The notes beneath the pieces are model-generated. The model did not search any database, was not told the DNA's origin, and saw only the letters and a list, made by a program, of their open reading frames with translations. A program made the translations under genes and the position numbers. From NCBI RefSeq assembly GCF_000003815.2, contig NC_049991.1, forward strand, positions 12,248,955-12,312,954: DNA of 64,000 nt, in the 5' to 3' direction. Each line of letters starts with the position of its first letter. Within the stretch, counting starts at the first letter, position 1. The DNA comes from Branchiostoma floridae. Its lineage: Eukaryota > Chordata > Leptocardii > Amphioxiformes > Branchiostomatidae. Shown here piece by piece: positions 2,310 through 61,263 of this stretch.

Positions 2310-4046
2310 CGCCTACTGTCCTTGAGTATTATCTCAACGGGGAGCACAATTCAACAACACCTATCTCATCCCTTTGGCTCACCTGTCACGTACGTGAGCG
2401 GCAAAAAACATCTGCTGCTGCTCCTCGGATCCTCGTGAACAGATTTTTGCGCGAAAACAACGCGTTGTGATATGATACAGAACACTTCCGGACACGACAC
2501 TATACATCCAGCATTACATACAAACTGCTGTGTTTAACCTGGACACCTTGTTGGCACAGTCAACAGTGGGTGTCAACGATTGGGCAGTTGTTCCTACCTC
2601 TTGACTGAAGACCTAGGCATACGGCACGCGTTTTGCAAGCTCAGTGTGACTTGCAGTTTGCACAATGTCAGATAGCAAACAGATGTTGTGAATAGACCAA
2701 TCCAAGGTCGACTAACCTTGGATATGGATACAAAGATATTTTTTCCTTTAAAATATGACGCCAAATATCAAATCTTTATATCAATATTGTAGTGAGTAGT
2801 ACTAGCAGACTTCTACTAGCGGCACATCTGAAAAACAGGCAATTTTATGTTGAATTTAGGGGAATGGTTGAATTGAACCCCCCTTCGCTCAACCCCAGTG
2901 GAACCGTCCATTCCATGATGTCATACGGTTGCGTCATGGAATACCCCCAGTAGCTTCCTGAATTTGCTTCTCGGGATCAAGGTGCTTAATTGGGTTCATG
3001 GGGCAAAACAATCTGCATTGTGGGACATACATAGTGCTTAGGTTGCAGTGGGCATTGGAATGTGTAAAGTCTGATGATTTTGGAAGCAGAGAGATGTTGA
3101 ACGGCTGTCTTTCTTTCCCGTGTCGACTTTAATTGCGTGTCAACGTTATGTTTGTACGATTAGCTTTTATAAAGTACTACAATAAGTGTTGTTTTTATTA
3201 GTCTTAGCTGCATACCTTACTAAAGAACAGACTGAAATAGTTGAACAAAGACTTGAGGACATTAAAACTTTTCAGTTGTTGGTGTCGTCGCAAAAAAAGG
3301 TGATCGTTTGGAAACGCTTGAAAACAAGTAACTAAAACAACTGGCTTATTGATCAGTTTTCTTGTTTTGCAAACATGCAAAAAATAGTTTCTTGCAAGCA
3401 TCACATGCCTTGTCGAAAAAAATTCCACAATGGAATTGTGACCATCTGTGACAATCGCCAATGTCCTCTTAGACCTTTTAGGCAAGTTAAGTCAGCATTA
3501 TTATATCGGTTACCTACATAAATATTAGTTATAATATGGCTTTTTGGAGAAGTTAGGATACTCTCATGATAAGTGAGACTGACATAGAGGGATACACTTT
3601 TGACTAATCCTAAAGGTTTGACTGCCTTGTAGAGTTAAGCTCGGAACCTTAATGTGAATTGTTGAATCATCCAACGAGCTTCATTGTTTTAAATTAAAAA
3701 TCAATCTATCTTAAGTTGGAAGAATTTTGCCAGCCTTTGCGTCAAATATTGTGCAAGAATGGAGTTTTATCTAATGCGAGTAAAGCTAACCAAAGAAGTA
3801 AACCATTTAAGGTATGATAAAAGCCCGATAACCATTTGTGATAGGAACTGTAGTGTGATACCATAAGGTCAAAGGTTGTTGATGATTGCGGGCACGCAAG
3901 TGACACTGAGCAAAGAAGTCAACGTCCACACGGCGTTTTCCACAGCGTTAGAGCCATGTCCTGGTCGCTAAAAGACTGAAAACTCACACCAGCGATCCCA
4001 CTGAACCAGAGAGGTCCGAGAAGGTCTTCAAGTAACGTCGGAGTGA
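2310..4046. promoter_or_regulatory. Shared intergenic region between divergent SLC26A11 genes
   Basis: 1.7 kb separates the start codons of genes A and B and must hold both 5' UTRs and promoters. No coding exon is recognised. A short inverted repeat, TTCCATGATG...CGTCATGGAA, lies near 2910-2943. I see no clear TATA box. The promoter role is inferred from the head-to-head layout. Confidence 0.5.
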
Positions 4047-7000
4047 ATGGCAGTGGTTCTGAAGAAGTGTAAAAGAAATGGCGTCAAATTGGTCCAGGAA
4101 ACGTGTTCTGTGCGTTTTCTCAAAAAGAGACTACCGATCGTGGCATGGCTGCCCAGGTACAACCTCGAGAAGTTCCAGGGAGATCTGATCGCAGGTTTGA
4201 CGGTTGGTTTGACCGTGATTCCCCAGGGTTTGGCTTATGCTGCAGTCGCCGAGTTACCTCTTCAGGTGAGCTATGATAAATTCGGACATGACCGGAAGTG
4301 ACTGAGTGGGCTGGGGTGGTGGGCAAAAACTCCATTTTAATTTTTTTGATAACAATTCGGAACCTGTTATAATATAAGCAGAACTGGACCTAGAAAATTT
4401 TAAGATGGTTGAAACTTCTATGATGGTAAAAGGGGGCGGGTCTAGGTCAAATTGGGGTCACCCATGTCAGCTGCGTATGCAAAATGATTGATCAGTTCAT
4501 CAAAGAAGAAAGCACAAACATCACAACAAATTATGGAGCTAGTATTACGACCACATTTAAGTAATTCAGTTCCCCTGGTAATACCCCCTCCTCTGTGTAA
4601 TGCCACAGGGTTTTTCAGGATTGAAAATTGAGATATGAATGATGTCTCTGGTGACATTATGTATGTCCACAAAGGAAATCGACCCTCAGGCACTCCTAGT
4701 AGACAAACCTGATACCTTATAAATTCAAGCAGATTGCAAATTGGCTTATTCTATCTCGGAATGTGAATGTATTTGGAGGGGTACCCCAAAAAAGGATACC
4801 GTAAATTTGCTGCATTTGCCTGCCCATTGCCAGAATAAGATTCCTGAAAAACATCACACATGAGTGTGAAACCACTTAAGGGGATGAAGGAAGCATTTGT
4901 AATCAAGAAACAACAATATAAGTGGCATTTACAGACAACTAGACAGGCAGCAACCATTAACTGAAAGCAAACCATTTCTTGGTGGAATAATGTGTGAGCA
5001 AAGCTGGTGAATTGCACTTAAGTTATATATACATGCCAAGTAATTGCAACATTATAATAGTTTTAATACAATATACAGATGACCATGCAGATGAAAATAA
5101 CAACAGTTTTATTACCAGTATTTATTAGTACATATGTATCACTGAGAGCATTTTTGAAACTTATCATAATGGTTGATATCTTATTAATCCCGTAGCTCGT
5201 AATTGTGAACTTTACTAGTAATAGTGTTTATGCTGAGTCTATGTTTTCCCACTTGACGTGTCTGTGTATTAAGAGAAATGGCATTTTGATTAGTGATAGA
5301 TCTACTAGAGTAGTTCCTATATGACTTGACAAGTCCCATTAGCAGACATACAGTCAGAGGGGAGTGAAGGCCTACAGTATATGTGTGTGCCATTTGCATT
5401 CCTCGTCACTTTTCATTGTCTACTATAGTAATTACCAGGGAAAGACTATTTCACACTTGAAGCCAGATTTGTTGGATTGCTTGTCAATGGAAGGCATTTT
5501 GTTTGGCATGGTCTAAAGTTTTCTCCGTATGGCACCTAATTGATAGCATAGCATTGATCATTATTTGATTGATTAATGTTGATTGATGAGAATCTTTGTT
5601 AATGCAAGGACGTTATATGTCCTTGGTTAATGTGCTCCCCTCTCTAAGGGACAAGACTGGTGTTTTGAATTATGCTCCTGTTTTGATGGGAGGACATACT
5701 ACATCAGGCGATGTGTGACATGGTGGACAGTGGGATGCAGTTGGCCATCCACAAACTGGGAAACATTCAGAGTATTGTATGGATAGTCTAAAAACATAGC
5801 CTTTCAAAACAGGCACAATCAATTATTGATATGTTATTCCTTGTTCTCACCCAACAGTATGGTCTGTATTCAGCCTTTATGGGCTGTTTCATCTACTGCC
5901 TGTTTGGCACATCGAAGGACGTCACACTGGGACCAACGGCTATCATATCGCTGATGACGGCTGAGTATGCGAAGGGGGAACCTACGCTCGCTATCGCTCT
6001 CTGCCTTTGCGCAGGACTTGTACAGTTTGCCATGGGTGTCTTACAGTTAGGTGAGTGCTCGAAATAATTTTTTGGTAACAGTTGAAACATCTACATCCAA
6101 AATCATATATCTTCTGTAGTAGCCACAAAAGCTCTTAGGCCATAAAGCATTACATGTACAACATATAATACATGTAATAGTATATACACATTTGATCCAA
6201 CATTTAATCATTTGACATTAAGCTCATATTTAAGAAGAGTGTCAAACTCAGGGAGGTAGTTCACTGCCTTTATTGTTGCTAGATGAATCACATTTAAAAC
6301 TGCTATAAATGTAGTAGGATTAATTGTAAGAATCCAACGAGAGGACAGTTTTCTTTTTGAATTATAAAAATGAGAGTATGTTGTATGATTACCATTTGCC
6401 TTGTCATGTTTTAACACAATGGCTCTTCATATTTTGCTCTGTAGGTTTTTTAGTGAATTTTATGGCGTTTCCGGTCATCTCAGGGTATATGTCTGCTGCA
6501 GCACTCATCATCGGATGTGGTCAGTTGAAGGTAAGGCATACATGTACAGAGTAATTGCAGTACTAGCCTATCATCTAGGAAATGTTCTTGCATGGTTTAC
6601 TTCCATGTTCTTTCCTGTAGAACTGAATCTGCAACCATCTGTACACAAACTTTGCTGACTTTTCTTCTGCATTAGACTCGAGCACTTTTTGAACTTGCAT
6701 GGCAAAAGTTTGATCCTTCTCTTTGCATATGCATTTGGTCATTGCCATACAAATTATATAGATCGTTTGAAAATTGTTACCTTTTTCCCCTGAGCAATGG
6801 TAGTATTAGAGTTGTACCTCCTTTGGATTGGTTTTGGATCACAGCATCCCTACAAGCTGGGCATATTTTTGGCCATTAATCTACCATATTGCATTTTGTA
6901 TGACGCCATGAGTATTTCCATATGCATGGTAGTGTTTTATATTTTGTTCTATGTTTAACATGGCTATTTTATTCCTATTTCTCCTTCTAAGTAACAATAC

Positions 7001-18321: not shown

Positions 18322-18342
18322 AGTCCTGTCCTTGGTGCTGAA
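18322..18342 (-). promoter_or_regulatory. NRSE/RE1-like motif, pair member 1
   Basis: On the minus strand TTCAGCACCAAGGACAG matches the 17-position RE1 consensus completely. It lies 0.3 kb beyond a candidate polyA signal of the sialyltransferase gene, and a second motif is 39 bp away. Confidence 0.45.
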
Positions 18343-18360: not shown

Positions 18361-18381
18361 TTCCCTGTCCTTGGTACTGAA
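18361..18381 (-). promoter_or_regulatory. NRSE/RE1-like motif, pair member 2
   Basis: On the minus strand TTCAGTACCAAGGACAG, one mismatch (T for A/C at position 6) from the RE1 consensus. About 15 bp of flank resembles its neighbour, so the pair probably arose by local duplication. Confidence 0.4.
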
Positions 18382-19346: not shown

Positions 19347-22300
19347 CTACCGACCACTCTGATCTCTGTATCGGGGGTTATTTCGCATTGCATAGACGTA
19401 GGAAGGGAGAGGCTTGCAACGTTCTCGCAATCTAACGACCCCCTTGTCATGTAGCGACTTCAGTGCTTTATACTCGTTGTACATCTTGTGTGGCCCTTGT
19501 TCAAAGTTGTAGCGGCTCCTCCTCTCGTAATAGTGGTAAGGCAGGCGGTTGCCCTCTCTGTCGTGGTTGGAGGGGTAGAAACCGTAGAGCGCCACCTGGC
19601 GGCATACAGAGGCTGCGATGGTGTACATGCATAGGCCAGTCGTGAGGCGAGGCACTTCCAGCTTGCGAGTGTTCCAGAACCTAAGAGATGTTTAAAAGTC
19701 AATTTACATTGTTAGCTGACTTTAGCGAACATTTGCAAAATTGTCTGGACATTAGCAACATAGAGGGCGTGCCTTTGGCAATGCAATATAAGACCTATGC
19801 CCTTTCGGCCATTCTCATACGCGGAGAGCCCAGCGTCGTTTTGCGACGACGTTGGACTCTCTGCGTAGGATAGGAGAATGGCTGAATGCTTTGGCAGGAA
19901 ATACTTTACTAACTTAAAGGTATCCTTTTGCTGTTAAACCTTTGATCGTATGTAACAATGATAGGATACGTATATACTAAACTTTCCTTTCCTTTTGTGA
20001 AACCGATCATCATACATTCATGTCCCCGTGTAGCGGAAAGTGTCACTTTACAATATGAAAGCAGTAACGGTTTTACTTGTGTGAGATGTACATATCGTAA
20101 AGTGACTCACTTGAAGATTGCCCTGGTGACCTCCTTTGTCGGATACAATGGCTGCAATGGCAGTCCGTTTAACCTCTCTCCCATGAGAATGGAATTTAAC
20201 AAGTTCACTTCCCGCTCTCCCATTTTCGACACGAAGGCGGGGATCCACAGAAAACCGTCCCCTATCTCCTCCAGTCGGTTGATGAATCTTTTCCTGCTGT
20301 TTTCCGAGTTGACCCGGTTGTAGTACGTCTTGAGAACGCTAGGGTTCATGGTAGTGAAGTTCGTACGGGTCCCCACGTCCACGTGGTATCGCGAGATCGG
20401 CGCGAGATTACAGCGAAAGACGAAGTCAGCGGTGTCGATCTCGTCTCCGCATCTGCTATCCCTGAGATGAAACGAGGGACATTATCTTTTTTATCATCAT
20501 TTGTAGGGTATTAAACGGGCGTGACATTGACGTTTGAAAATTGAAAACAACTGGCGTTATCATTTGTCACACAAACTTTTTTCCGGACACATACACCAAA
20601 ACTGAAACTGTCGTGGAAGCTGCTCAATTCACCAGCTGCTTGTCTTGCTCAATGGGAGACCTACGCTAGTTCATCAGTGATTTACCACACATAACCGACA
20701 ATCAACCAACCAGACAATGGAACTACACTGTAGTATATGACCTCTGATATAGCACCTACCTGAGTATACCCCCATTGCCCACTACTGCGCATGTGTTGTA
20801 GAACTTCCCATCGAACGGTGACGTTTCGGGCAGCAGCACGTACATTGGTCCAGCCAATGTGACGTAGTGTTGAGGTTCGACGTCATACACGATCTTCTTC
20901 CCCACCTTGGCCGAGCTCTTGGTGAGGGAGATGTCCCGTTTGATGTGACACTCCTCTTCCAGCTCGTCCCTGTGTGTTCATATCATACAGTCTTAAAGAC
21001 CTGTCCTATTGTGTATGTGGTGTCATAAGGCATCGCTGGGCCCTATAACCACCAAATACACCACCGAATGAGCAAAGCAAAGCCAAAGGAGGTGATTTAT
21101 GAGGTGGTTATAGGAACTGACAGTGCCTAGCTTCAACACCGTATATAACGAAGGAAAATAGGCCATAAAGTTGTTATCATACAGCCATCTTGATATATCA
21201 AATTGAAACATGCATTTGTTCTATGAAAACAAAATACTTCGGTATCGCGACAAGAAAATTATCAGATTAAAATCATAACATCAGCATTATATCTACGCAG
21301 GAGAGCCGGTAAAGATACAAGCACACCTGAAGGATGATGCGGCCTCCTCGTCNNNNNNNNNNNNNNNNNNNNNNNNNNNNNNNNNNNNNNNNNNNNNNNN
21401 NNNNNNNNNNNNNNNNNNNNNNNNNNNNNNNNNNNNNNNNNNNNNNNNNNNNNNNNNNNNNNNNNNNNNNNNNNNNNNNNNNNNNNNNNNNNNNNNNNNN
21501 NNNNNNNNNNNNNNNNNNNNNNNNNNNNNNNNNNNNNNNNNNNNNNNNNNNNNNNNNNNNNNNNNNNNNNNNNNNNNNNNNNNNNNNNNNNNNNNNNNNN
21601 NNNNNNNNNNNNNNNNNNNNNNNNNNNNNNNNNNNNNNNNNNNNNNNNNNNNNNNNNNNNNNNNNNNNNNNNNNNNNNNNNNNNNNNNNNNNNNNNNNNN
21701 NNNNNNNNNNNNNNNNNNNNNNNNNNNNNNNNNNNNNNNNNNNNNNNNNNNNNNNNNNNNNNNNNNNNNNNNNNNNNNNNNNNNNNNNNNNNNNNNNNNN
21801 NNNNNNNNNNNNNNNNNNNNNNNNNNNNNNNNNNNNNNNNNNNNNNNNNNNNNNNNNNNNNNNNNNNNNNNNNNNNNNNNNNNNNNNNNNNNNNNNNNNN
21901 NNNNNNNNNNNNNNNNNNNNNNNNNNNNNNNNNNNNNNNNNNNNNNNNNNNNNNNNNNNNNNNNNNNNNNNNNNNNNNNNNNNNNNNNNNNNNNNNNNNN
22001 NNNNNNNNNNNNNNNNNNNNNNNNNNNNNNNNNNNNNNNNNNNNNNNNNNNNNNNNNNNNNNNNNNNNNNNNNNNNNNNNNNNNNNNNNNNNNNNNNNNN
22101 NNNNNNNNNNNNNNNNNNNNNNNNNNNNNNNNNNNNNNNNNNNNNNNNNNNNNNNNNNNNNNNNNNNNNNNNNNNNNNNNNNNNNNNNNNNNNNNNNNNN
22201 NNNNNNNNNNNNNNNNNNNNNNNNNNNNNNNNNNNNNNNNNNNNNNNNNNNNNNNNNNNNNNNNNNTAACAGTTGCGACATCGTACCATCTTATATAACA

Positions 22301-32796: not shown

Positions 32797-35700
32797 TTTA
32801 ATATTTGTAATAGCATAACAATAAGTCAATTTATGGATTGTGATGATATTTGGTACGTTTGCCAATGTCCTGTCTGCTTATACATGCTCATTGCTTGAGT
32901 TGAACGGTGGTCTTGTTCTGTTCTTGATTGCTAGTTTAGCTAACCAACTTGCTCGTTGTGGCCAGGTCATTCATTCACCCTCAGCAATAAGTAATGACCT
33001 GTTTTAGCTAAACCTTGCGTGCGATGGTAAATAATAATTGCTTATTGATTATAGTTCCATCAATCTCCAAATACATCGAAGTGCCGAATTTTTTTGTTTA
33101 TTCAGGCATTACGAGTAAGGCAATCTTTATACAGATAATGAAAAGTTGACATAGTAAAGTTATTAAACTTAAAACTAAATCCAGGCATTTGATGAAGACG
33201 CAGCTTTGTCGTTGTTGGTGTTGGATGGAAGTTTGTGGTTGGCAAGGTGAAGGTACCAGACATCTTATCAGTACAAATGGCCATCCTCTCCCATTTCCCT
33301 GTTTTCCTACTTGATTATGTAACACCGCGGGCCGGTTTTGCTCCAAACGGCAATAGCAATTCAATTACCGGGCCCGAACCGTGCTTATCTGTCCGCTAAT
33401 CACCGTGCCTGCTCGGCAGTGACGCATGGCTGTGTCTATATGTACAAGTAGAGGCACCCGCTGCTGGGTCCGACCGATGGCTATCTAGTCGAGGAAGAAT
33501 ACTCTTTATCCACATTCAATTACATCTGCGGCGATGGAGTTAGACGTTTACGTGCGCGCATTACTTCGAGCCCACAGGCTGGAGTGCGAAGATCTCACCG
33601 TGCGAACATATGCATTCAAGCCCGCATGGGTTGTGAATTGACATCATTTCAAGTCAGGCAAATTCAAAATTTTACTTTTGTAGAAGTACTTGGGGAGAGG
33701 GGGGTTAGATAACCAGGCTGGACAACAGTCGGTTAAGGAAAAAAACCTTATTCTTTGCAAATCATATGTGCACTGGTGTGTCCGCTTCGAATTCCTAAGC
33801 GAAACTACAAAGAAAACCGAAAAGGATGGAGAAACCGGTTGCCAGACCTTCCAATTCTGTGGTGCCGCACCAATAGTCATGATCAATTAGGCACAGACCA
33901 AGGGATAGATGATGATGAGATGATTTCTTCATAACATTTTACGTCTTTGTATTCTTTTACTTCATTCATTTTGACATGAAACTATACAACACCCTTTTCT
34001 TGTAAAACGGACGAAGTCAACATACGTACTTTTAGGACAGAGAATATTATAGATAGGATACTTTTAAAGTGCACTGAAAATAAGAAATGAATATAACTTC
34101 GCGTTCAGTTGCAGAAGTCATATTTCACACAACTAGTATTTACTAACATTTGCTGTTCAAAATATCACTGACGCGCGACTTTTGAAATGCCATCCAAAAT
34201 TCAAGAAACCATCGAACACAGCACCTTAGCCAGATGGTGCCACAGTGGCATCGTCCTGAAATTGAACTTGGAGGACGGCATTCAGGCCGGGGAAATGTCG
34301 GCTCATCCTCAGAACTGGTTCCAATTTGCCGCTAGGGCCGTTTTACGGCGGCAGCAGCACAGACGGTGTTCCTGAGTGTTGGAGCGGCTGCTAATTTGTT
34401 GTGCCGCCGGGCGCGTAATTGTGAAGCACGAAGGCATGACGTTCGTTCTGGAGGACACATTTGTGCACATGTGTACGGGAGACGCCGCCCCGAGGGGATG
34501 TTTGACTCTCACGCTGCTGAATACGTAATCACCAAGCAGATGTTGAGGAAAAGTGGAGTGTTTTCTCGCTTGCCATGGAATGGTTGCGTGTCGGAATTAA
34601 CAGGCAGAGAACGTAATGGTTTTCTGACCAACATTTGCTTGGATATTACAGACGAGACACGTTACAAGTGAAATATCTTCAAATCGACATTTGACAGCAC
34701 AGAATGCTAAATCATAGCTAATCAACGCTAAAGCCTATAGTGACCGGCCGACAGCCAGCGAAAGATGATGTAAACATAGGCTAATAAACGCTGGAAAAAC
34801 TTAGATCGCACTGTACTGGTGCGTGGACAACAAAATTGTGCAACTTTGCAGCACAAACTCCAATTATGGCACGCCGACTTTTCAGTGACACACATACATG
34901 GACAATCACTGCCACAACTGTCTTGTTTGTTTGTTTTCCCCAACATACTTGCAACAGAAAGTCTGTTATTTGGGGTTTCTTTGGAGGGAAAAATTAACAA
35001 AAAATCTTCATTTGTTTTCACATTACGTTGTTCTCACATCATCCATGTCCAAGCGGTAATATGGTTGATCTATGCAATGTTCTGTATAATTAAGCAGGCC
35101 GCCCGATGATGGTGTTCTATAGTACTCTTGAAGGTCTGAATATTCCGACTTTGTTTCAAGTGTGCCATTGATATTGTTGATTGACAAATCATCGAGTAAC
35201 ATGTCCATAAAATTGATGATTCCTATTCCATTTTACTTACTAAGAAAAATGGCATTTTGATCGAAGGTTATCATTATCAAATGCGTCACCAATCTTGATG
35301 GTTTCTAAGAAAATGTTGAAAAGAATTGTACGCAACCCCAATCGCGCCCCTTACTAGGTCTCCAGCAAACCGCGGCGCATTGACAGAAGTGTAAGCCTGT
35401 GCTATTGACTGGAGGAAGACATACTGCTCACATTGGATAAAAATCAATTCCGAGTCCACGCGTGCATATAAATCAGCCGGGATTTGTTGGCAAGAATTCC
35501 GACACGCACGGGGTAGACTATATAACCTTCAGTTTATGTCAGGCGTGTCAAAGGTCAGCCATACGTCACCCGACGTGAGGAATTATGGGCCACATGTGGT
35601 CAGTCTGCTAACTTTTCATGTTTCTCGCTGTCCGGGGTGCTGAAGGGAAATCCAATACATCAAATACATGAAAAACTCTGGATATGTAGCAAACTATATT

Positions 35701-39700: not shown

Positions 39701-41819
39701 TTTTGGAGCTGCAAGTTGCAATTACTCACAATGACCTTGCATACGACGACGCTTCTATTGCACAACATTGCACCGCTCAAGAAACCTGTATAACTTTCAT
39801 CGTTAGTTCAAATATCTAATCAAAGATCAGAAGAACTTTACTTTTATTCTGCGGAGCCATACAACAATGGCCAGTCACTAAACTGTTAATTGACAATTTG
39901 GAAAGTGGAAAATCTAAGAATCAATGGGGTCTAGTAGTTGCGACTTTGTTCTCTAAACAGCATTTTTGAAGAACACTTCTTATCCACAAAAGGAGTTGAG
40001 TTCATTCTGTCTGTATCTACATCCGTTCACACACACCGTATTACATGCATGCAGCCTCCTGATATTTTCTAACACACCGATAGGTGTCGCTTTTTCCTTG
40101 CTGCTGTGTGCCATGATTGGAAAGTGCTTGGCACCCTGCAGCCTCGCACTAGCGCTAGACCGAGTAAGTATGTTGAAATGATTTTGAGACCGTATCATCA
40201 TCCTCCACAAACCTCTTTCTATAAAAGTCACCACAAATCTCGCAAAATATCAAGCGCTTGGCTGTTTTCAAATGAATATTTAGTCTTCTCAATAACCGAC
40301 TATTCAGCACCAATGACAGACACAGTTTGAGATAAATTTATATCTGTATTGCAAGTTGCTGAAGCACATTTCTGTTCCTGACGATTAACTGTCAATCACG
40401 TACCTTCACTTCGGCCCCGCTCCTGTACCTGTTCGCAGAAATGTTACAAAATGATTTAAAATAAGACATCAAGTTCGCAGCCCGTTTCGTGCTAACTTCG
40501 GCTACCCGGTCCCGGTCTGTGACTATTTTTGGTGAAAGATCCACCAAACACTTAAAAGGACAGTACTGCAGCTACTCACGATAAATCAATAACAGCAGCC
40601 ATCTTTTCCACCAAAACTTTCCAAAATTGGCTCCATTTTAGGCTATGTTATACGGTACTATCAAATCAAAGCTCACCGCATAATATCTTAAAAGGTTGTA
40701 ACGCCATAATGAAGATTGTTGTGCCTCACGTCCACGCATCTTTCCTTCACGCTGTATCAAGCTCGTGGAGTCGTTCTCGCAACGTTTTACTGTACTGTGT
40801 ACTTATTACCATCAAATCACTATATTATGATGTGTGGTTTATTTATGGTTTGAATCCCATTTTCCAGTGCCGACTGTGTTCGTTATCAGCTCGACAAGAC
40901 GACAATAAAAGTGAAAGAAAATCATTTGTCTCTTTTTCCGTGGCGCCATCTGATCCTCAAAGATCTATCAATGGGCCATAAAATGTCACCGACAAGCAGT
41001 TGCTGGGACCATTTATCAAGAAACACCGTTTCAACCGGTATCAAAAAAAAATCCTAGTGAATGTTTACTTTGTGAGACTGACCATAGGTTAAGAAGATTT
41101 GTATCACGTATGACGCTAAATACTCTGTGTAAGCGTGTTCTGTTCTGGTTTTACTTTGGTTTGGCACTTCGCAAGCTAAGAAAATGTAATACCAGTAAGC
41201 AATGTTCTAGACAATTCACATTTGAACATAACATAACAGCAAAGAAAATTCAACTTGGCATTTTAGCAGCACTTGAGCGAAAAAATAGATCATTCACTTT
41301 TTAGGGCTCTTCACATGGCGCCAGTTGAAATGATACCTAATCTACAAACCGTGCCAGTCGCGGACGGGTAGTAATCAATAGTCGTGCCGCTGGTTAGTTT
41401 TATGGGAACAACAAAAGAGATAAAGTCTAGCATTAAATGATGGTAGGTCTATTCTTTTGCTTACATTATTTCATTTTCTCTTGTAGAGTGAGAATTTGAA
41501 AGAACTGGAGCGACAGAAAGACTATAGTTACAAAACTTTTACACCTGCAGCAAATGTGAACTTGCCTGGTTAAATAGATAAACTGAAACTGAAATGTGTG
41601 AAAAAACGTTCTTATACCAAACCGCAACGATTAACCACAATGTGCCAGGCTGTAGACTGCTTCAACCAGAGGCGCCAGCATGTCTCCACGTGCGGGCCGG
41701 GCTTATGAAGCAGACGGGAGATCTCCGTTACAGATCCAGGCTGGCTAGACGCCTGGCAGACGAGAGGGTCGTAAAACAAGTTCAGAAACACCCATCGGGA
41801 GTTCACCTAGAGTTCAACT

Positions 41820-43285: not shown

Positions 43286-44838
43286 CACATGGTACAGTAT
43301 GGCTTCCATGGTCTGTCTAGGTACTAGTATTTCTGCAACTTAGAAAAAAAGTAAGACGACTTCAATAAAACATACTGTACAGATTAAAGATAAAAATACA
43401 GACGCATGGTGGTTCATCGTCTTGATGAATATATTGATAGATAAATTCTTCGTCTTGTTTCAGAATACGCTGTTATTTCCATGAACTAAGTGATCAAACA
43501 TTTTTACAATACGTAGGGTCGTAGCTCTTCTAAGACCACATTTTTTACTTTACAGGTAGAGTGATTTTACCATTCAGTTAGCATTAATAGCAGCACTTCC
43601 ACACACCAATGCCGTGTTCCCGTCGCGCTAGTTTGCCCACAATATAGCGGTTCATTACCATTGATTGCTGATGACCTTTGACATCCCCGTTCCGCTCCAG
43701 CGATTTTTGCCTACATATCCGTCCACTTATTGCTCGGAATAACGTCTCCTATGGACATGTTAATTGAGGGTGTTCTAGGAATAGGAAAAACTGATTGTAA
43801 GTTATTTGCAGGGGTTGTTACGGGTGAGTGCACTTTATTATCTGCGTATTCTTTTACAGATATTGCAACAATACTGGCCAATAAAGGGACCAAGCCAACG
43901 CATTCTGTTCATATATGGATTCATGACTTTTTGATTGAAAACGAAAGATAACACATGAATCTAGATATGTGTGGATTTCGCTGGTGTAACTCAAGGATAA
44001 AAAAACATGACATCATTTCAGACTGATGCTCCTTGTGATACGTGTTTCGAATACATTTCAGTGGTATTCTTAAGACTTATAATGCGACAATTTTCACGTT
44101 CGGATTAGCTTTTCCATTGAGTGTCAAAAAACAACAACAATGAAACCCGCGCATGATTTAACCACTAATATATCTTTTAAGGTTACAACTGACTAAGAAG
44201 TTAGTCGGAAAAGTTGCGATTCACCATTCCTGTATATTGCAGATAACAGATTCACTATATCATCCTCATTATCGCACCTTCCCCGCAATGTACATTAGTA
44301 TGCCTTGCCGTGTACCGTTCTTTTGAAGAGCCTGGGTTGCCTAATTACCGCCCGCTTGTGAGTGCGTGCGTGGATTCTCTCCCTTCGTGCTCAGAATGTC
44401 ACTTTGATATTAGTGCATTACTGATGCTCTTCTTTGATGCGCGAGACTGACATGCTCTCATGTGCGAGAAATATGTGGATCACAGTGGATGTACGCGTGA
44501 TGTCAATTGTACGTTTGAATTCAATTCTTGGAGAGGAGAAATCATCATTGAAGTCTTCTACCCTAGTGATACGCCAAAAATTCTTTTCAAAACGCTCTTA
44601 AAAAACAAAACATTCGTTGAACGACATGATTTTGTTTACCTGTAGCACATGTATAGTAATAATTGGATGTAGAATGCATGTATGATATTGTTATCGTTAA
44701 CACTACATATGTTAAAGGTGTTGTTTGCGTCATAGATAAGGCTAAGAAGATGTGAATAAAGTTGGGTATGAACATGTTTTAACCTTTGGGACTGCAACAC
44801 CTGTGCTTACATGTATATACCACTAGTATCTAAGCTGA

Positions 44839-44859
44839 TTCAGCACCAAGGTCAGGGAT
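44839..44859 (+). promoter_or_regulatory. NRSE/RE1-like motif in gene desert
   Basis: TTCAGCACCAAGGTCAG, one mismatch from the RE1 consensus (T at position 14). It is 4.7 kb beyond the candidate polyA signal of the LRR receptor. Confidence 0.35.
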
Positions 44860-49132: not shown

Positions 49133-49153
49133 TTCAGCACCAAGGACAGAGAC
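49133..49153 (+). promoter_or_regulatory. NRSE/RE1-like motif downstream of LRR receptor gene
   Basis: TTCAGCACCAAGGACAG followed by AGAC. All 17 consensus positions match. It lies 1.3 kb past the LRR receptor stop codon and 0.44 kb past its candidate polyA signal. Confidence 0.5.
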
Positions 49154-49575
49154 CGAAAGCAACGTCAACGCTCCTAACAAAATCTAACCTCCTTGCTCCT
49201 AATAAACAAATGCAGTGGTGTTCTTCCACTTGCTTGTTTCTTTTCTATAGTCCTATGTTTGTTTGTAGTATGAAATATCTGTGTAGCAAAGCCTCCTAGG
49301 TTGTAGCTTGGAGTTTCTCAGCCACTCTCCCCTTTCGTCAAAGCCCTACCATCAGCTTCAATTGACAGGTGTTCCGGGTAGGCCGCCATTTAAAGCGCTT
49401 CTAGTATTAGCTATATTGCCTTTGGGCTGGATGATATGAAAGACTTAATAGAGTTTTTCGTGTAACAAGGTATTCAGTTTGGGCTAATATGATACGGGTT
49501 TGTTTGAAATTAGTTTAGCCAAGAGAGACAAACAAAGAGCGATCCGTGTTTTCAACAATGATTTCACCATGTGAC

Positions 49576-49581
49576 TTTATT
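49576..49581 (-). terminator. Candidate polyadenylation signal, LRR receptor gene
   Basis: AATAAA on the minus strand, 0.85 kb past the stop. It is the first one found there, which would give an ~870-nt 3' UTR. Confidence 0.45.
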
Positions 49582-50433
49582 ACAATGAAGCATCCATAGC
49601 TGCCACGTTAACACAATACTCACAATTCTAATGAAATATCACAATTTTCTGACAGGATAATTTGTCATAATTCAATGTACAGACATGACCTCACGATCTG
49701 GGATTTAGGGGTCTATATTCACACAGGACGATTTCATCGCCAAGGGATCCACGGACTTGACATCACTTACATGGAATGTATTGTCGTTGAGAGATATCAA
49801 GTTCCCAAAGGAAAAGTCATGAACTGTTGACACAAAGGCCTAACGTTAATCATAAAAAATTGCCGGGTATCACAATTGATATTGACAAAAGTTATATACA
49901 TTATAGTTAACGTTAGATCTCGATTCAATTCTTGCAAGTTATGTAGCGTTGGAAACACCCTTTGACATCTGACTTATAAAATCTGTTTCATAAATTTTAA
50001 GTTTTAAGTTACAATTCAAACACTGGAAGGGTGCATAATTACAATGGTATTGGTACAAATATTTCAGTAATTATTTACAAGTCGGAATTTTTTCACTGAC
50101 TAAATTGTTGATCACTTTAACGCCAAAGTTTTTGTTCATTTCCACATAGTGCATTTGTCATACTTTTGTTACAATACATTTTTACATACAAAATATACAC
50201 AGCCATTGCCTATTTTTAAAGTGGAAAGAGTGTCGAGTGACTTTACCTTTTCAAGCTGAAACAGTGCTCCTATGCTGCCTGCTATCTCTTAATTAGAGTC
50301 AATTGTACCAATTTTTCTCTGTTCCATCAATCCAGGGTAGGTCTGAAAGTCAGAATGTAAGGAAATAGTTTTAGGTTCTGTCAGCTGCGAGGACATACTT
50401 TGTATCACCATTTATGGTGTTAACGTTATATTC

Positions 50434-52665
50434 TCAAAAGTTTGTACTCTTTGAATGCTTCAGCCGACAGTACTGATACTGTGTGAAAGAAGCCATCGTC
50501 TTGGCGCGAGGAATTCTTCGAGATTTTGAGGCGCGCATTCCAAGGTTTCCTTCCTCGTCTGAGAGATCTTCGTCGTTTCTTACGATGGGTGCAGCTGTAG
50601 CACCCAACAGCTCGGGTTCTATGTCCTCGTAGATGTGCTCCGACATGCGGTTGGTGTCCTCTCGTTGTAGATGTTTTCTCATTGTTGCTTTGGGATCGCT
50701 GTCGTCGGGCGAGCTCATCATTGAGGACCGAAGAGCCGCGTTACGATGCCCGCCTAGAGTGGGATCGTCAACATACGAATTCCTGTTCTCGTAAACATTG
50801 TCCACCAAAGTGACACAGTCTGATCTCGGTCTCACGTTTACGTTTGGTCTGCTACCACTGACGTCGGGCTGTGCTTCTCCGAGCCGCCGCCGACAAATGC
50901 TCAAGAAACCGCAAAGACTGCCGCCATTTTCTTCTTCCTCTTCATCCGTTTCTGTTTTTATGACAACCTTCGGTTTTCGACACTGGATGATAGCGTAGTG
51001 AATGCTGGCCACAGATAGTGTTATGATTGCCATCCCGCACAGAAAAGTACCAACTATGATCGGTCCTAACATCTCTTCCATGTACGTCTTGCCAGGTAGA
51101 GTTGAAAACGTGGTACACACCTTGCTTGAAACACAAAGCCTGTACATTGTTCCAGGCCGCAGGTGCTGTAGATGGTGGTCGGACCCTCCCCCGACTTCCA
51201 CCGCCAGGAGCTTGGAGATGGTTCGGTTCGAGTTTTCATCGAGAATTGTCACGTTCGCACAAAACGGAGGCCGTGCACAATCTAGAGTGCACCCAAATCG
51301 AACTGTTGCTTCGTCCGTTGACACTTTGACAATAGACAGTTCTAAGTCGGTAGTCATTTGTAAGTTCGACCCTTGAGATGTAAATTCTGAGCAAATGTCA
51401 GGAACTTTAGTAGTTGTTTGTGGTTTTGGTACTGTTGGTTGCGGTACAATTCTTCCAGAAGGTCGGGTGGGGATAACACCACCACCTTGCGTTGGAACAG
51501 TTGTGGCCGATGACAAGGTAGGAGCCAAGGGTTTCCCGCCGGGGCTAACAGCTCCCTTCTCTGTGGGACCTTTAGGCGGAGTCCCGGCGGGTGTTGGCGC
51601 GGGTTTGCTCGACGTCGTAGCCACCTCGGGGGTCGGAGTCGTCTTCACAACAACCGGTACAGGATCTCGCGTGAGGGTCAAGATCAGCTTGGAGCTGACG
51701 GATCCTGCGGGATTTGTAGCGACACAGATGTACGTTCCTCTGTCTCTGTACTGCACCGACCGCAGCACTATCATCCTGTCCGTACCCTCATCCTTGGGTC
51801 TCACCGTCCCTGCAGGAGTTATCCACTTGACGGTCGGGAGCGGGTCCCCATCTATAGCGCAGTGGAGATATACTCTGCTCTCTACGGGGATTACACCTTT
51901 GGGGATGGCCCAGGCCCGTGCCGTGGGAGCTTTACATGGTAGCTCCTCGGCTTGATCGACTCTCTCTCCGTGTAGCTCAGCAGGTGTGGCGCAGGTGATG
52001 TCCTTACGCTGCTGAACGTCGACGTTCGTTGTTTTCAGCCAGTCGGCTAACCATTGTACCCCACAGTTACAGTGCCATGGGTTGGCGTGGAGAAGCAAAT
52101 GTGAGAGAGAGTTCATACGGTCGAAGGCACCCGAGGGTAGAGCTGTTATTTCGTTATGGTGTATCCTCAGAGAGCGCAGCTTGGTCATACGATTAAAAGC
52201 TTCAATCGGAATGTACGTTAACTTGTTGTTGTTAAGTTTGAATAGCTGTAGTCCAGGTAGATATTGCAATGACTCCCACGGAAATTCTTTTAGCTCGTTG
52301 TTTCCCAAGTCCAGATTTCTCAGCGCTCCTAGTCGCATGAAGGCCATGTCCGATATGGTCTGTATATTGTTGTAGCTAAGCCATATGGAGTGTACCATGG
52401 AGTACCTGGCCAAAGAGTCGTCAGTTATAACAGTCAGGTCGTTAGCGGCCAGGTTGAGGGAAGTCGTGGTCCGCGGGATCTCTGTGGGAACCGTCTGTAG
52501 GTTTTGGTACGTGCACTCCACCGAGCAGAGCAGAGTGACGTTGTTGCAGCGGCACTTGCAGACCGTCGGGCAGGTGGGGAGCGCCCCTGCCGCCGAGCTG
52601 ACGACTATCCACGCCACGGGGAGAATCAAGAGCAGCGTCCACGGCGTAACGGTAAATTTGGACAT
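50434..52665 (-). CDS. LRR-Ig-FN3 single-pass transmembrane receptor (LRFN/LRIT-like), intronless CDS
   Basis: 743 aa in one exon. Order: signal peptide ~1-28 (LLLILPVAWIVVSSAAG); LRRNT 32-65 (CPTVCKCRC); about five LRRs 66-190; LRRCT 195-246 (NPWHCNCGVQWL...); one Ig domain ~248-333 with Cys269 and Cys314 (GTYICVA); Pro/Thr-rich linker 335-422; FN3-like domain ~425-522 with extra Cys pairs; TM ~533-560; cytoplasmic tail 183 aa. The tail has an acidic run (DEEEEEN) and tyrosine sites VYENR and IYEDI of SH2-ligand type. It ends STNF, which fits a class I PDZ ligand (S/T-x-hydrophobic). This architecture is shared by the vertebrate LRFN/SALM and LRIT neuronal adhesion proteins; I cannot choose between them. 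RE1-like motifs lie on both sides (49133, 54257). Confidence 0.95.
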   Translation of the reverse strand: MSKFTVTPWTLLLILPVAWIVVSSAAGALPTCPTVCKCRCNNVTLLCSVECTYQNLQTVPTEIPRTTTSLNLAANDLTVITDDSLARYSMVHSIWLSYNNIQTISDMAFMRLGALRNLDLGNNELKEFPWESLQYLPGLQLFKLNNNKLTYIPIEAFNRMTKLRSLRIHHNEITALPSGAFDRMNSLSHLLLHANPWHCNCGVQWLADWLKTTNVDVQQRKDITCATPAELHGERVDQAEELPCKAPTARAWAIPKGVIPVESRVYLHCAIDGDPLPTVKWITPAGTVRPKDEGTDRMIVLRSVQYRDRGTYICVATNPAGSVSSKLILTLTRDPVPVVVKTTPTPEVATTSSKPAPTPAGTPPKGPTEKGAVSPGGKPLAPTLSSATTVPTQGGGVIPTRPSGRIVPQPTVPKPQTTTKVPDICSEFTSQGSNLQMTTDLELSIVKVSTDEATVRFGCTLDCARPPFCANVTILDENSNRTISKLLAVEVGGGSDHHLQHLRPGTMYRLCVSSKVCTTFSTLPGKTYMEEMLGPIIVGTFLCGMAIITLSVASIHYAIIQCRKPKVVIKTETDEEEEENGGSLCGFLSICRRRLGEAQPDVSGSRPNVNVRPRSDCVTLVDNVYENRNSYVDDPTLGGHRNAALRSSMMSSPDDSDPKATMRKHLQREDTNRMSEHIYEDIEPELLGATAAPIVRNDEDLSDEEGNLGMRASKSRRIPRAKTMASFTQYQYCRLKHSKSTNF

Positions 52666-55600
52666 CTTTGTCGCCTTCTGAACACTTCTCGCGTCCCGAA
52701 CAGAGTTAACTCAGCCTAAGCTTGGTCCGACAACAGTTCGCGTTTTTCTTTCTCCATGCTTGCTCTGTGGCAAGGAAGCGCGTTAGAAAATAAGCTGATT
52801 ACCATCACATAGTAGTCCCAGTTTCCATCGTTCCCACCTGCAATTTCCCCTCAGAAGCCAGCACCCGTGTGCAGCATGTATACATGAGCGAGCAAGTCAG
52901 CTTTCCGTGGCTGCTCATCCAAACGCCGGATCGACCCGCACTCCTGTCAATCTCGCTGGAGTCCAGCCTTCTGATTGGTCGCTTTTTTCAGGACTTTTCT
53001 TGTGATTCGATTGCTGCGCTCCCTCGCCGGGGGAAATCACACCATCGGCCGTAAATAGGGCCTGATTGCCGCGCGTAAATAGGCACTTATTGCAGTGAAA
53101 ACTTGTCAGGCTCGCCAAATGTACTTAATTTGCAGTCCACAAATAGGACATTAGGCGCATTTGCCTGACAATAAACAGATATCCCGCTTATATTTTACAC
53201 GGTGATGATAGAAACGCCACAATCCTGACATGGCAGTATCTCCTCCAGCATCGCGGGACCAGGATTAAAAGTAAAAATGATTGACAGCTCGAGCACGCGT
53301 TGTACATCTTAATCATACCCAGCCCGAGCACCCCCATCCCTCTGTGGGGTTATGGGAGCAGCGAATATGATCAATATTTTATTGCCCCGCTTTCGCTCTA
53401 CATAATCCATAACCCTGCCGAGCTCTGTGCTGATGAAAAATCACGCGAAATTACTTCCACTTCGAGATGTCTAAATTGAATACTCAGGGACAGGTCACCT
53501 TGTGTGCTATTCTGAACAGATCTGAGATAGAGCTTTGTCACATACGGTCTTCGTTTCATGGAGATTCTTCTATGTGAATACCGGTCGATCTATCCTTACA
53601 TGGCACACATTTGAGTTGTTGGGTGTGATGAGGCCTTCGAGATAATCATATGGTCCTGGGACCACAGAAAGTCGTAAAACGTAATCAAACCCGTCTCTCC
53701 CCCGCCGTGCGTTGAGGGATATGCCGGGACAGGATTTATGATATACGGCGGTTATCATTACTATTAATTGTAGTGATAATGAGGTCTAACCGCCGCCGTA
53801 AATCTGTCAAAGGTGCAACATGGCGGGAAAACGGGCAGACTGGGTAGAACGGACGGGCAGGGCGCCATTTTACTATAGCGTGTAAAAATGTCAGGATTTC
53901 GTGAAGGGTGTCTTATGAATTAGCCACGCATTAACAGAGGCAAGCTGTCTTCTTTACACGTAAAATTTGATTATGGATTGGTATATGTATCAATTCAAAT
54001 CTTCATGATATTCTGATTTTACACATGTAAAAAGCTACATAAAAATACATGTACATGTATATGGAAATACGCAGGAGATTTGCTGTGACAAAATTAGGGA
54101 CTCCTAGTATATCTTTTTATACCTGTCAATCACGACAGAGCCATGGAAAACTTAATCTTCTTGTTATGGCTTCGAGACAAAATTAAAACATAGCTATAAT
54201 TACTTCCGCTTTGGTGTGGTGTTGTGACTAAGCGTGTGACGACGTGTGATTTTGGTTTCAGCACCAAGGACATGGATAATTCTGAAAATGCGCCTAGCGC
54301 AAAGGGCGCCATTTTTATCTGTCTGTAAGGTCCAGTGTTCGTCAACGCTTTGACCAATCGTGTCAGTGAACGTTATATGTTTGTCATTTAAGTTGCCCAA
54401 CATCCAAGCCCTTGTGCTATTTGGTTAATCAGAAGTGTCTTTGAGACTCTTTGGCAAACTCATTCAGAATTACATTTTATCTTCAAATCTAGCAGGCGTT
54501 GAGTTAGTGACAGACATGTGCGTGCTGAACGCTGTTTACGTTACGAATCCGAGTGCTTCCCACTTCAATTGAGAAAGCATTAGCGCTAAGTGGGGTGACC
54601 TTCGTGAGTTTTGCAACATTAAAATCAATTAGACACACGGATGTCTCTTAGCATTTGGGACAGTCTTCTAATGAATAGACATATGTCAAATTCAATAAGA
54701 AATGCATTTTCTTCTAAAGGGCAAATGAAACGGCATTTTCCAATGGCTATCAATAGTAGCTGTGAAAAAAGCAAGTGGCGTACTTTGCCTGGGTCAAACA
54801 TGGCAAATTCGGTTTACAGTGCGCCCAGTTTTGAGTGGTGTGCTTGGAACTCGGTCTTCAAGAGTCCACTTGTATTGTACACTTACTAGTATTTTGATTT
54901 TCTACCGTTCAGAGCGTCATGATCGCCCCATATGATTAATCTGTCTTACTAGCTAAGTTAAAGACACTGTTAACATGCATGACCATCATTATTCTAACAC
55001 GAGCCGAGGCATCATTTAGCCGAGGGCTAACCAAAGCCTCCTGGCCGCTGCCATGGCAACTGACCTGGTCCCCATTAGAGGGAATATTTCGGTGGGCGGA
55101 GGTTGACATTTACCACGCACAGCTTGTCCAAACTTGTTTTCCACCGTACTGAAGAAGCCGGAAGGATGCAGATATATTGATCACGGGATGAATCGTGCTG
55201 TATGAAAGGATTGGGAGATAATAGTCACAGGGGAATATCGCTTTGGGTTGACGCACTACATCCAGGGAAGGGTTCAGATCAGATAACACACATGATGTAT
55301 TACAGCTCTTTTATTCCAGCAATATGACGGATGTAATTTTTCAACTTTAATGATTTGTATGTAAGATGAGTGTATCTTAAAAGAATAACAACAATCGCGA
55401 GAATATTGTGCGCTGGTAACATATTTAGTGATGTGGACGTGAAAGGGTAGAAAATCAGAGGAAGTGACTGCGTGTCCCAACGGAGGGAAGGCTAGTTGAG
55501 AGAGTCAGAGTTGATGCTGACGGTCCCTCCTGTAGGACTCACTAATGGACGCGTACCGCCTATTTCTGATACCAAGCGGTCCCCTGGGCTGGGGATGTGG

Positions 55601-57125: not shown

Positions 57126-60100
57126 ATGACGGACAAGATGGACATGTCTCTTGACGATATCATCAAGCTCAACAAGCCCGGGCGCGGCGGGAGAGGCCGG
57201 GGAGGCGGCCGGGGACGGGGAGGTGGCCGGGGACGCGGCGCAAGTCGAGGCCGTGGCGGCGGCGGTGGAGGTGGCTTCAGTGCCGGTGGTGGCGGCGGCG
57301 GTGGTCCCATGAGGAGGGGAAGACGGGGCAACCCTAGGTCAGCTCCGTACTCGAGGGTTAGTATGTTTTCCCGTCCTTCGTAGCCCAAAAATCCTCCTCC
57401 TGTATTGTCAACATGTATCACAAACCGGATATCGTCATCAGTGGGCTACGCCATGTTAGCGTCATCTCCCTCACTGACAAAGAAAACCAGGACGGACGTT
57501 TAAACGAGTATTTTCGGTGTCCAGGAACCACAATATCCACAAGTTTAATATAAACCAGCTACATTACGTATAGTACTAGGTCTGTCCTGCACCAGGTGGG
57601 TTATTTTCTCTGGAGTTATGAAGTTATAAGGGAAACAAAATTTGCCCCCCTCCCACGGTGTGAAACAGGACACATGCAAAATAGACAGGCACGAGGACGC
57701 CACCCGGACATGGGACTCAAAACATGACGTAAAGGAACAGGTGATGATGAAGTGTCACAACATGTGTCAAGAACAACACCTTCAAGTCAAAACGTGTCAC
57801 ACGATAATGGGCCAGAGGTATACTTTGTCTGTGCTTTGTCCTAACTTTTGTTTTCAGCACTTCAGTAACGTTATGTCACATAATGTGTGACTTGTGTAAT
57901 CTTATCCTCATAATATTTCATGTTTGACGTAACCTCAACAGATGCAGGTGCATCTTGTATATTGTTCCCAATTGAAAAAGATTATTAAAAAATCGCTAAG
58001 TCCCACATTACTCCACATGAAATAGCTTTGCAGTTAATTGACTTGAACTAATTTCCATAAGAAATGCACAGATGCTTTTCCTGTCCCTGGCTGAACAAAA
58101 GTACATTAGAAAGATAAAAGAGTGTCATAACACATTAAAAAGACAAAGGTTTTCCTAAGGAATTGCTAGACAAGAGGAACCTGGAAGTTGTGTAGAATTG
58201 TCTTACACTTATCAGCTTCGTCTTGATTCCAGGAACATTACAAGTAATTGCGTCCATCTGAAATTGGACACTAAAATGACACAACAGCAGATGATCTCCA
58301 ATAAGAATATATCGATAGTAGCTACAGAATATTGCAACCCTTCCACAAAAGAAAATTAACTATCAAGTTTACCAGGTCAAACCAACGAAGTTCAGCTATA
58401 AATGAAACAGGCTATTTTTTTACACAGCTCGTATTAGGTTAACCACACCGACAGACAGTCATCTTTGACATGGAAGGACCACCAGACTAAGTATTTATGA
58501 TATCTTAAACTATTGCGATGCTCAGTCAGCTGTTTAAGATTTAACGTGTGCATGCAGACCTTTCACGAATTTTGAATAAGCTGAAAACTGAAACTGAATA
58601 TTTTGACTTTAGATCTCTTTTTGTACCTTTGCAGCCCCAGTCCATGCCAGATGTGTGGCAACACGACATGTTTGACGGTGGTGTCGGAGGAGGGGGTGCA
58701 CGGAGGGCGCCACAGCTAGGGGGAGGGGGGACCGGCATCTCCACAGGAGGGAAGCTCCTCATATCTAACCTGGACTTTGGGGTCTCAGACGCAGACATCA
58801 AGGTGGGTCATAGTGCTTTCCTGGAGACACTGCAATGGGTTGCAACTTGCTCTATTAATCCTACATTCGACATTGTTTTATGAAACTCTAGGGAAGAAAG
58901 GAATGGGTTGACTCTGAAGTACACTTTGTTCAAATTCCAACACCCCTCCTAGAACTCCCCTTACCGTTCATGAACAATGTGAAACAAAGTTTGATTGCCT
59001 AATTGTTATTCATGAGATACAGTTGCACTTGTAGTAGAGAAGTTATAAGCTACTGTAGTTAGTGGTTGCTCACACAGGGTTCCTTGTGAATGTCACAAAA
59101 AGAACCTCAATACTTCAGTTTACAAGTTCTTCAGATGACTTGTGTTTGTACACAAATAAAAGATTTGTTTAATTGATTCTTGCTTAATCCAATGTCTGAT
59201 CCAATGTTAGTAAATGCAACATTTTGCTCTTTGGGATAGCTTTTACAAAGTGTTTATTTTCTTCCTGCAGGAGCTGTTTGCAGAGTTTGGGAACCTGAAG
59301 AAGGCAGCGGTACACTACGATAGGTCAGGTCGCAGCCTGGGGACGGCGGATGTCGTGTTTGAGAAGAGAGCAGACGCCATGAGAGCCATGAAGCAGTACA
59401 ACGGTGTTCCACTAGATGGTATGTTAAGAAAAAGTAGCTCAAATTATTGTATTTGTGTCCACTCTGTAAAAATAATCAATGACAGACTAAGTTGATGCAT
59501 TTTCATACCAAGAATGTTGTGGAGAGTTTTTGGAAAAGAATGAAGATAAATTTGTATGCGTATGTTTCATTGGAAATTCATTGAATTTTTTCGGAATTTA
59601 GAAAGGTTTAAAACTGAGCCTCTTATGTCCACATCAAATGTAAAAGTCCATTCATATCTTACAAAATATCCTGAAGAGTCGTGAAATGTTAATTAATTGT
59701 TACAGATGACATGTATATATCAATAATACAGGTAATATGAAGCCCTGCATTACCCTAACTACCCATGTTGTATCTCTGTAGGACGGTCAATGAACATCCA
59801 GTTGGTGACTTCAAACCTGGCCGCAGCAGGCGGTGGTGGAGGCGGCGGCGGTGGTGTCGGTGGCGCCAGACAGGGGTAAGACTTGTGTTGTTGTTAATCA
59901 GCTATTTCTGAAAAAGTACAGGTGAACTTCAGTATTATTAGACACATACATGTCTGCAAAAAGGAAGCTATGGATAGGTACATTCTCATGTCATGTGTAA
60001 GCAAAGGAAAAGTTGAACTAGTTCTTTCACCCACAATTATCTGTGGAACCCATTACTACCATCGCCCTAAGCACAAATAAAAAGAAACCCTGCCATCCGT

Positions 60101-61263
60101 TTACAATTGTATGTGATGAACTCACCAGACTTCTTTTCGACATACCAGCAATATTCTGTCTGTTTAGGTCTTAATAAATCTAGGATAGAATCATTCTTTG
60201 AAAAGATAACTGTTAATAGAGTGGTTTGGAAAGAAACCTGGTACGAATGCTGAAAAGCTGTTGGTGTTGGTCTTGCACATGTCCAAGCCTTGCTATTCCT
60301 TACATGGATATCTCACAAGTGTGAGGACATGTGCCCAGACCTAGAGAAAAGCACAGAGGATCACACATGGCAGGCTACAGGTGTGGGGCACTCCAAGCTA
60401 GTGTTCCATGTATAGCACTGCCTACATACAGATCATGGCCTCAAGCTTTGTTTATTACCATATTGTTGTAATGAACTTAAAGATATGATATGCTTTTGTC
60501 CTTCCTCTCTTGTATTATCGTTAATCATTAGCCCATACTAGTGTCAAGCACAATAAAAATGTTTGTATTACAAAGTTAATGTATTTTCACTTAATGCTGA
60601 TATGTAACCAATTAACAGGAACCAACTGACAGGAACCAATTGACAGGAACCAATTGGCCATCTATATCAAGTACTTAACATGCTTGAAACTTAGCCAACT
60701 GTTTAGGCTATTGATTTTTGGTAACAGATTCCCACTGTTGCCAAAGTAAAGCCTAACAATTGAAACATTTGTGTGTCCTTCAGTGGAGGCAGCTACGGAG
60801 GAGGCAGAGGGCGTGGCGGAAGGGGCCGAGGTGGGTTCGGGGGCAGGGGACGCGGTAGGGGTGGTGGTCGTGGAGGCAAGAGCAGAGAAAACATCTCAGC
60901 AGAACAGCTGGACGCTGAGCTAGATGCATACAATGCCGGGGTAAGTTGGAGTACAATTTGTTTCTCCCATGAAAGACATAAGTAGATGGTGCATTTCTTT
61001 ACAACAGTTTGGCTGTAGTGCAACAATGTATAGTTTCGTACATCGCTGGTTTGAAATAATGTTTTTTACAACATCGAACAGAATTAATGATATAAGTGAG
61101 TACTTTGATGTGAAGAGATGAGAAGATTAAGGGTTAATCTTGTTTGTTTAACTTGTGCTTTTATAAGAACTACTAGTACCTTGTTATTGAAGTTTTTGTG
61201 AACACCGCAAACAGGAAAGACCAATAATCTAACCACTGTTTTCTCTTGCAGATGAACAGCTAG
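57126..61263 (+). CDS. ALYREF: ALYREF / THOC4 mRNA export adaptor (six exons)
   Basis: Exons 57126-57356, 58635-58802, 59271-59418, 59782-59875, 60784-60940 and 61252-61263 sum to 810 bp, 269 aa. The N-terminal UAP56-binding motif ([13 protein letters not shown], residues ~5-17) is followed by an RGG/Gly-rich arm. The linker [18 protein letters not shown] leads to an RRM at ~115-192: RNP2 LLISNL, RNP1-like [10 protein letters not shown], and the family hallmark [21 protein letters not shown] second Gly/RGG arm and the C-terminal UAP56-binding motif ([18 protein letters not shown]) close the protein. ALYREF couples spliced, capped mRNA to the TREX complex and NXF1 in the nucleus. The exon 1 donor is GTTAGT; the last exon codes only MNS. 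Gly runs after residue 197 and in exon 2 make it longer than the human protein (~257 aa). Confidence 0.97.
60607..60657. repeat. 14-bp tandem repeat, about 3.6 units
   Basis: ACCAATTGACAGGA and one-base variants in ALYREF intron 5. Confidence 0.85.

Follow-up and report, generated by a model that had tools for sequence, protein, structure and literature searches.

The lancelet genome carries several thousand exact RE1-type cores, both as solitary sites and within tandem arrays, and ten such sites form a bounded cluster in and beside the 64,000-nucleotide stretch of Branchiostoma floridae DNA analysed here (the window). The sites are genuine, of RE1 type and far more abundant than was first thought; a circuit specific to the receptor gene that two of them flank is unproven. 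Our preferred reading, held with a little under even confidence, is that these are sites for a REST-like zinc-finger protein, occurring both as solos and as minisatellites, and that the ten-site cluster acts as a shared, redundant silencer domain.

The original prediction drew on two exact copies of the 16-mer TTCAGCACCAAGGACA, at 49133 and 54257 on the + strand, and a string search of the window finds both in place. The fit described for them also stands: the former agrees with 15/15 fixed positions of TTCAGCACCNNGGACAG, the latter departs from it once (T at position 17), and the sequences flanking the two are unrelated. What does not survive is the idea of a two-site pair around a receptor gene. 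The exact 16-mer occurs four times in the window, at 295 (+), 18327 (-), 49133 (+) and 54257 (+), and is joined by four sites with one mismatch or a variant spacer (Table 1). Counted by mismatches over the 15 fixed positions, TTCAGCACCNNGGACAG yields 4 sites at 0, 8 at up to 1, 8 at up to 2 and 9 at up to 3. Thirty first-order Markov sequences gave on average 0.033 sites at no more than one mismatch (maximum 1), where the window has eight, and no member of a set of 2,000 permuted motifs reached more than one site in the window at the same threshold. The left half TTCAGCACC occurs seven times in the window, against 0.59 expected by shuffling, and in all seven cases the sequence goes on into a right half that has one mismatch or none. 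The full RE1 layout (left half TTCAGCACC, 2-bp spacer, right half GGACAG) is present at eight sites with at most one mismatch, four of them at 15/15.

Among the eight window sites, no column beyond positions 1-20 is strongly conserved. The spacer is AA in seven; the exception, at 35624, has both spacer bases changed and 0/15 core bases changed. Position 20 is A in 7/8 sites, and the right-half extension is thus weaker in the window than in the solitary sites that we sampled from contig C1. At that position the C1 solos have C in 16/39 and A in 11/39, the sites of the window cluster being more alike mutually than the genome set. Elsewhere in the window, a tandem array at 11305-12182 gives rise to overlapping long open frames (LTGSGSLPGPAAYR-like) and is probably no gene, and a run of N of about 1.1 kb, masked or withheld sequence, occupies 21262-22322 (1,114 N in the window).

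Table 1. Features of the window, in window coordinates.
Feature	Position	Strand	Remarks
RE1-type site	295..315	+	exact 16-mer; 15/15 core positions
RE1-type site	18322..18342	-	exact 16-mer; second unit of 39-bp two-copy tandem
RE1-type site	18361..18381	-	one mismatch (position 6); first unit of 39-bp two-copy tandem with 18322..18342
RE1-type site	35624..35644	-	spacer CC, not AA; 15/15 core positions
RE1-type site	40303..40323	+	one core mismatch (position 12)
RE1-type site	44839..44859	+	one core mismatch (position 14)
RE1-type site	49133..49153	+	15/15 core positions; ~1.3 kb downstream of receptor stop
RE1-type site	54257..54277	+	one mismatch (T at position 17); ~1.6 kb upstream of receptor ATG
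Exon with Sulfate_transp (SLC26) match	1941..2312	-	Pfam
Two exons with Sulfate_transp (SLC26) match	4047..6004	+	Pfam
GT29 alpha-2,8-sialyltransferase exons	19350..20977	-	Pfam; best solved relative 5bo6
Intronless LRR-Ig receptor, 743 aa	50434..52665	-	single open frame; Pfam; solved relatives
ALYREF-like gene exons	57126..60940	+	RRM_1 at 59265, FoP_duplication at 60785

A scan of 100 kb on each side of the window for the RE1 core at up to one mismatch added two sites on the left, neither farther than 1.7 kb from the window start, giving ten sites in 55.9 kb. Beyond the cluster, no site at this threshold occurs in the next 98.3 kb to the left or the next 109.7 kb to the right; the right flank has one 2-mismatch site, 2.1 kb from an exon of HID1. 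Were nine independent sites distributed uniformly over 264 kb, so tight a group would arise with a probability of about 4e-5. The local density of sites is genuine and bounded. Yet chance alone would produce five exact loci within 56 kb 0.35-0.95 times in the whole genome, and a stretch of 56 kb with four exact loci already occurs in the 13 Mb of C1, which makes the cluster notable but not extraordinary. Five of the sites (35624, 40303, 44839, 49133 and 54257) lie 4.3-5.1 kb apart, more evenly than chance would have it (P 0.0004, post hoc), a spacing that does not extend to the remaining sites of the cluster.

The genes under the cluster, which is a single locus, are a sialyltransferase, the LRR-Ig receptor and SLC26 exons. 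The receptor had been described as an intronless LRR-Ig-FN3 gene at 50434-52665. It is indeed one uninterrupted frame of 743 aa, on the - strand, and its LRR and Ig parts are solid in Pfam; the FN3 part is weak (E 0.17; 12.6 bits, where the cut-off is 25). Its membrane span was assigned by eye. Among the best 60 of 349 matches to solved structures, relatives matching over both LRR and Ig include LRRC4C, LINGO1 and LRFN5, and the top-scoring one, LRRC15, matches in the LRR part only. Resemblance of domains makes the receptor a candidate neuronal protein. The closest solved relative of the sialyltransferase, 5bo6, is presumably ST8SiaIII. The gene at 57126..60940, which from its domains we take to be ALYREF-like, has no Pfam match in its two first exons. 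Farther to the right come a RhoGDI gene and HID1; ALYREF, ARHGDIA, SLC26A11 and HID1 are all on human 17q25, in keeping with a chordate. Left of the cluster, a rhodopsin-type GPCR gene (7tm_1; L076:1307-3167, C13 ~12.220 Mb) ends 25 kb from the nearest site. The left 100 kb, this gene included, hold no site at up to three mismatches except the two at the window edge. With a GPCR gene that has no site nearby, the locus gives no backing to a simple rule.

The original prediction would be refuted by a motif from a high-copy repeat family with no bias to neural genes, and the first half of this applies, the 16-mer being very high in copy number and partly tandem. The assembly (431 contigs, 513,431,437 bases) holds 4,974 copies of the exact 16-mer (2,259 + 2,715) and 0 of the reversed 16-mer, taken as a control. 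The sample comprises all 58 loci (L009-L066) among the first 100 matches listed, which lie within 0-13 Mb of C1. Three large arrays with a period of about 43 bp were set aside, leaving 39 solos and 16 multi loci among the remaining 55, some of the latter counted as multi solely because a 3-mismatch site, possibly a chance one, lies nearby. When copies within 2 kb are merged, C1 has 57 loci in 13.06 Mb, or 4.4 per Mb. This RE1-type population is very large and takes two forms, namely solos in mostly unrelated surroundings and tandem duplications turned minisatellites. Flank likeness among the 39 solos is limited to three paralogous pairs and short matches to one locus (L060). Arrays with periods of 35, 39, 42-45 and 57 bp share the core, 39 bp being the period of the window's pair at 18.3 kb, and at L009 (C1:910900-913300) a 43-bp minisatellite of 46.6 copies has the RE1 core in its unit.

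The identity of the motif is addressed most directly by bases that played no part in its selection. In vertebrates the right half of RE1 runs to position 21, as G.GCC at positions 17-21, and our solos were chosen by positions 1-16 only. Once three paralogues are removed, 36 solos remain, including one (L036) that by eye is a diverged relative of L055 and L056. The vertebrate letter is found at position 17 in 26/36 (G), at 19 in 15/36 (G), at 20 in 14/36 (C) and at 21 in 18/36 (C), and position 18 shows no preference for C (4/36). On average 2.03 of the 4 letters of G.GCC are matched, whereas 98 control offsets give a mean of 0.78 (sd 0.13, maximum 1.08). This lean at unselected positions marks the solos as RE1-type and would be unexpected for a repeat unrelated to RE1. 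Judged on sequence, the motif is of RE1 type and not merely a repeat; that part of the original claim is supported, and the special pair around the receptor is not. The conserved block is not cleanly a 21-bp footprint, since columns -7 and -2 (0.39 and 0.36 bits) are as informative as position 21 (0.35 bits). Upstream of the block, the 39 solos have A or G at -7 in 33/39 and C at -2 in 20/39. Copies with T at position 17 form a subclass ending ACAT, in which L036, L055 and L056 are possibly coding paralogues.

A search for a REST-type zinc-finger gene, which had been suggested as a check, brought many matches and no clear orthologue. Our query, an approximate REST finger sequence of 168 residues, matches the Pfam REST-like finger PF24540 and gave at least 425 matches in the genome (150 of 4,855 candidates scored). 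None of the matches listed stands out as the orthologue, and one with short exons could rank lower. The best listed match, on C16, has 44% identity over residues 1-165 of 168 and lies in a stretch with many similar fingers; the next three listed have 45-46% identity. All four fetched top matches carry generic C2H2 linkers and none keeps the query's unusual linkers throughout, one of them (L090) having HNG at one such linker. All three finger loci that were scanned match PF24540 above the cut-off. Matches are dense on C16 at ~18.0-18.7 Mb, on C158, C200 and C323, and on C10 at ~22.4-23.1 Mb. A large set of putative REST-like finger matches is present in the lancelet genome, and a lineage expansion of finger genes could have accompanied the growth of RE1-type sites. 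PMC9903721 describes REST as conserved through chordates, citing two 1995 papers. That our query brought out no clear orthologue lowers our confidence in the preferred reading and raises it in a repeat origin.

A repeat origin is possible, though on balance doubtful. It would make the sequence a short dispersed repeat or minisatellite core, a unit of 16-20 bp spread or kept for reasons other than silencing, with the solos as seeds or relics of arrays. Precedents for a shared core exist, the CENP-B box being common to unrelated satellites and the Jeffreys core to human minisatellites. The sheer number of exact copies and the common core of arrays with different periods would fit such an origin. 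So would the array spacers, since 13/66 compared pairs score above z 3 for likeness, most of these between 43-bp arrays (L033, L050 and L062, which have no short spacer, were left out); the spacers of L057 and L066, by contrast, are unlike every other unit compared, none above z 3. Sites with two and three mismatches are common in the fetched loci (17/120 and 20/120), mostly in arrays, but the window has no site at exactly two mismatches. The near-fixed AA spacer hints at copying, given that the vertebrate consensus leaves the spacer open (PMC9903721, PMC3531662), and A at position 20 in most window sites likewise favours a copied unit. The signal upstream of the RE1 block and the lack of a clear REST orthologue among at least 425 finger matches point in the same direction. 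Against all this stand the solos themselves, whose flanks are mostly unrelated and which still favour the vertebrate letters at positions 17 and 19-21.

The other alternatives carry less weight. A silencer pair specific to the receptor and bracketing one neuronal adhesion gene strikes us as quite improbable: two sites do bracket the gene, at ~1.3 and ~1.6 kb, but the 56-kb cluster to which they belong has eight further sites and extends over the sialyltransferase and SLC26 exons as well, and the receptor's neuronal identity is a matter of domain resemblance only. A further possibility arises from small RNA data. When four 17-mers/16-mers were sought in the literature, the AA form appeared in one lancelet paper, as the B. 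belcheri microRNA bbe-miR-2060c-3p (gttcagcaccaaggacaggc), which contains the 17-mer and goes down after poly(I:C) (PMC5650284). Going by this one source, the core is not private to one lancelet species; however the microRNA arose, a second lancelet has the sequence and transcribes it. That our sites are miR-2060 hairpin genes or their relics, with the RE1 likeness secondary, is nonetheless very improbable. In an opposite-arm test of the eight window sites, only 49133 lay above 99% of random segments, with 10/12 pairs by eye, and its P of 0.008 is close to what 16 tests would give by chance; the other seven sites have no opposite arm above the 95% level. A microRNA hairpin at the window sites was rejected on these results. 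Rfam gave no match in the window at gathering level, and the six weak matches at E<=3 include none over any RE1-type site, one of them (SCARNA7, 44644-44808) stopping 31 bases before the site at 44839. Moreover, the 20-base string of bbe-miR-2060c-3p recurs 21 times in array L009, being part of its unit, so the annotation may itself stem from the repeat; on this evidence the miR-2060c call is more likely a product of the arrays than the reverse. Hardly credible at all is a coding origin, in which the 16-mer would encode FSTKD with preferred codons. Three copies, L036, L055 and L056, all of which have T at position 17, do lie in frames of more than 100 codons reading FSTKDIA, but the FSTKD frame is shorter than 100 codons in 40/43 copies examined; with long frames in only a minority of copies, this candidate was set aside.

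We therefore return to RE1-type sites for a REST-like protein as the reading that we prefer. A lancelet REST-type finger protein is predicted to bind the sites, including TTCAGCACCAAGGACAG, and once bound would recruit co-repressors. The ten sites over the sialyltransferase and the LRR-Ig receptor, both candidate neural genes, would then constitute one shared, redundant silencer domain, and solo sites caught in tandem duplications would have become minisatellites. The putative binding protein, the repression and the target genes in this scheme are proposed from sequence features. An extended form of the same idea would combine thousands of selected solo RE1s, RE1-seeded minisatellites, array-derived RNAs (miR-2060c) and a grown set of REST-like fingers, with the arrays and RNAs serving as decoys that tune the repressors on a scale above the vertebrate counts cited here. 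We consider this unlikely; if true, the REST site would be among the commonest short elements of lancelet genomes. With several thousand exact cores in solo and tandem form, the age and growth of the network can be tested on lancelet genomes and chromatin data that already exist. The abundance is a warning, too, that a catalogued lancelet microRNA may be the product of an RE1-core repeat.

Most descriptions treat REST as a vertebrate system, and comparison with known systems may help to place the lancelet sites. The CENP-B box, a protein site of 17 bp, persists in satellite DNAs that differ in the rest of their sequence. The lancelet site is likewise kept in unlike tandem DNAs, and differs in that it also occurs solo and fits a silencer motif. 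From neural stem cells of the mouse, Kuwabara reportedly described in 2004 a small double-stranded NRSE RNA that carries the RE1 sequence. The lancelet bbe-miR-2060c-3p shares the RE1 core with it, but comes from one table row, in which a link to REST or neurons is absent. According to PMC3902484, amphioxus 'mirage' minisatellites (Canestro 2002) duplicate intron/exon borders; they and the RE1-core arrays are both lancelet tandem repeats, the mirages being distinguished by this origin. A literature search of titles and abstract openings found no report of RE1 sites in lancelets. In the main text of PMC4284660 neither 'minisatellite' nor 'tandem repeat' appears, and in that of PMC6292497 none of REST, NRSF, RE1, minisatellite or tandem appears as a whole word, supplements lying outside both searches. 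With the vertebrate RE1/NRSE (the REST/NRSF site), a 21-bp bipartite element with a 2-bp spacer (PMC9903721), the lancelet sites share the bipartite layout, the 15 fixed core positions and, in solos, the right-half preference at positions 17 and 19-21. They differ from it in their near-fixed AA spacer in the window, in serving also as a minisatellite core, and in number: a single variant has 4,974 exact copies in 513 Mb, against 1,102 sites at up to one mismatch reported for zebrafish (PMC3531662) and 1,892 for human (PMC1794552), both counted with other patterns.
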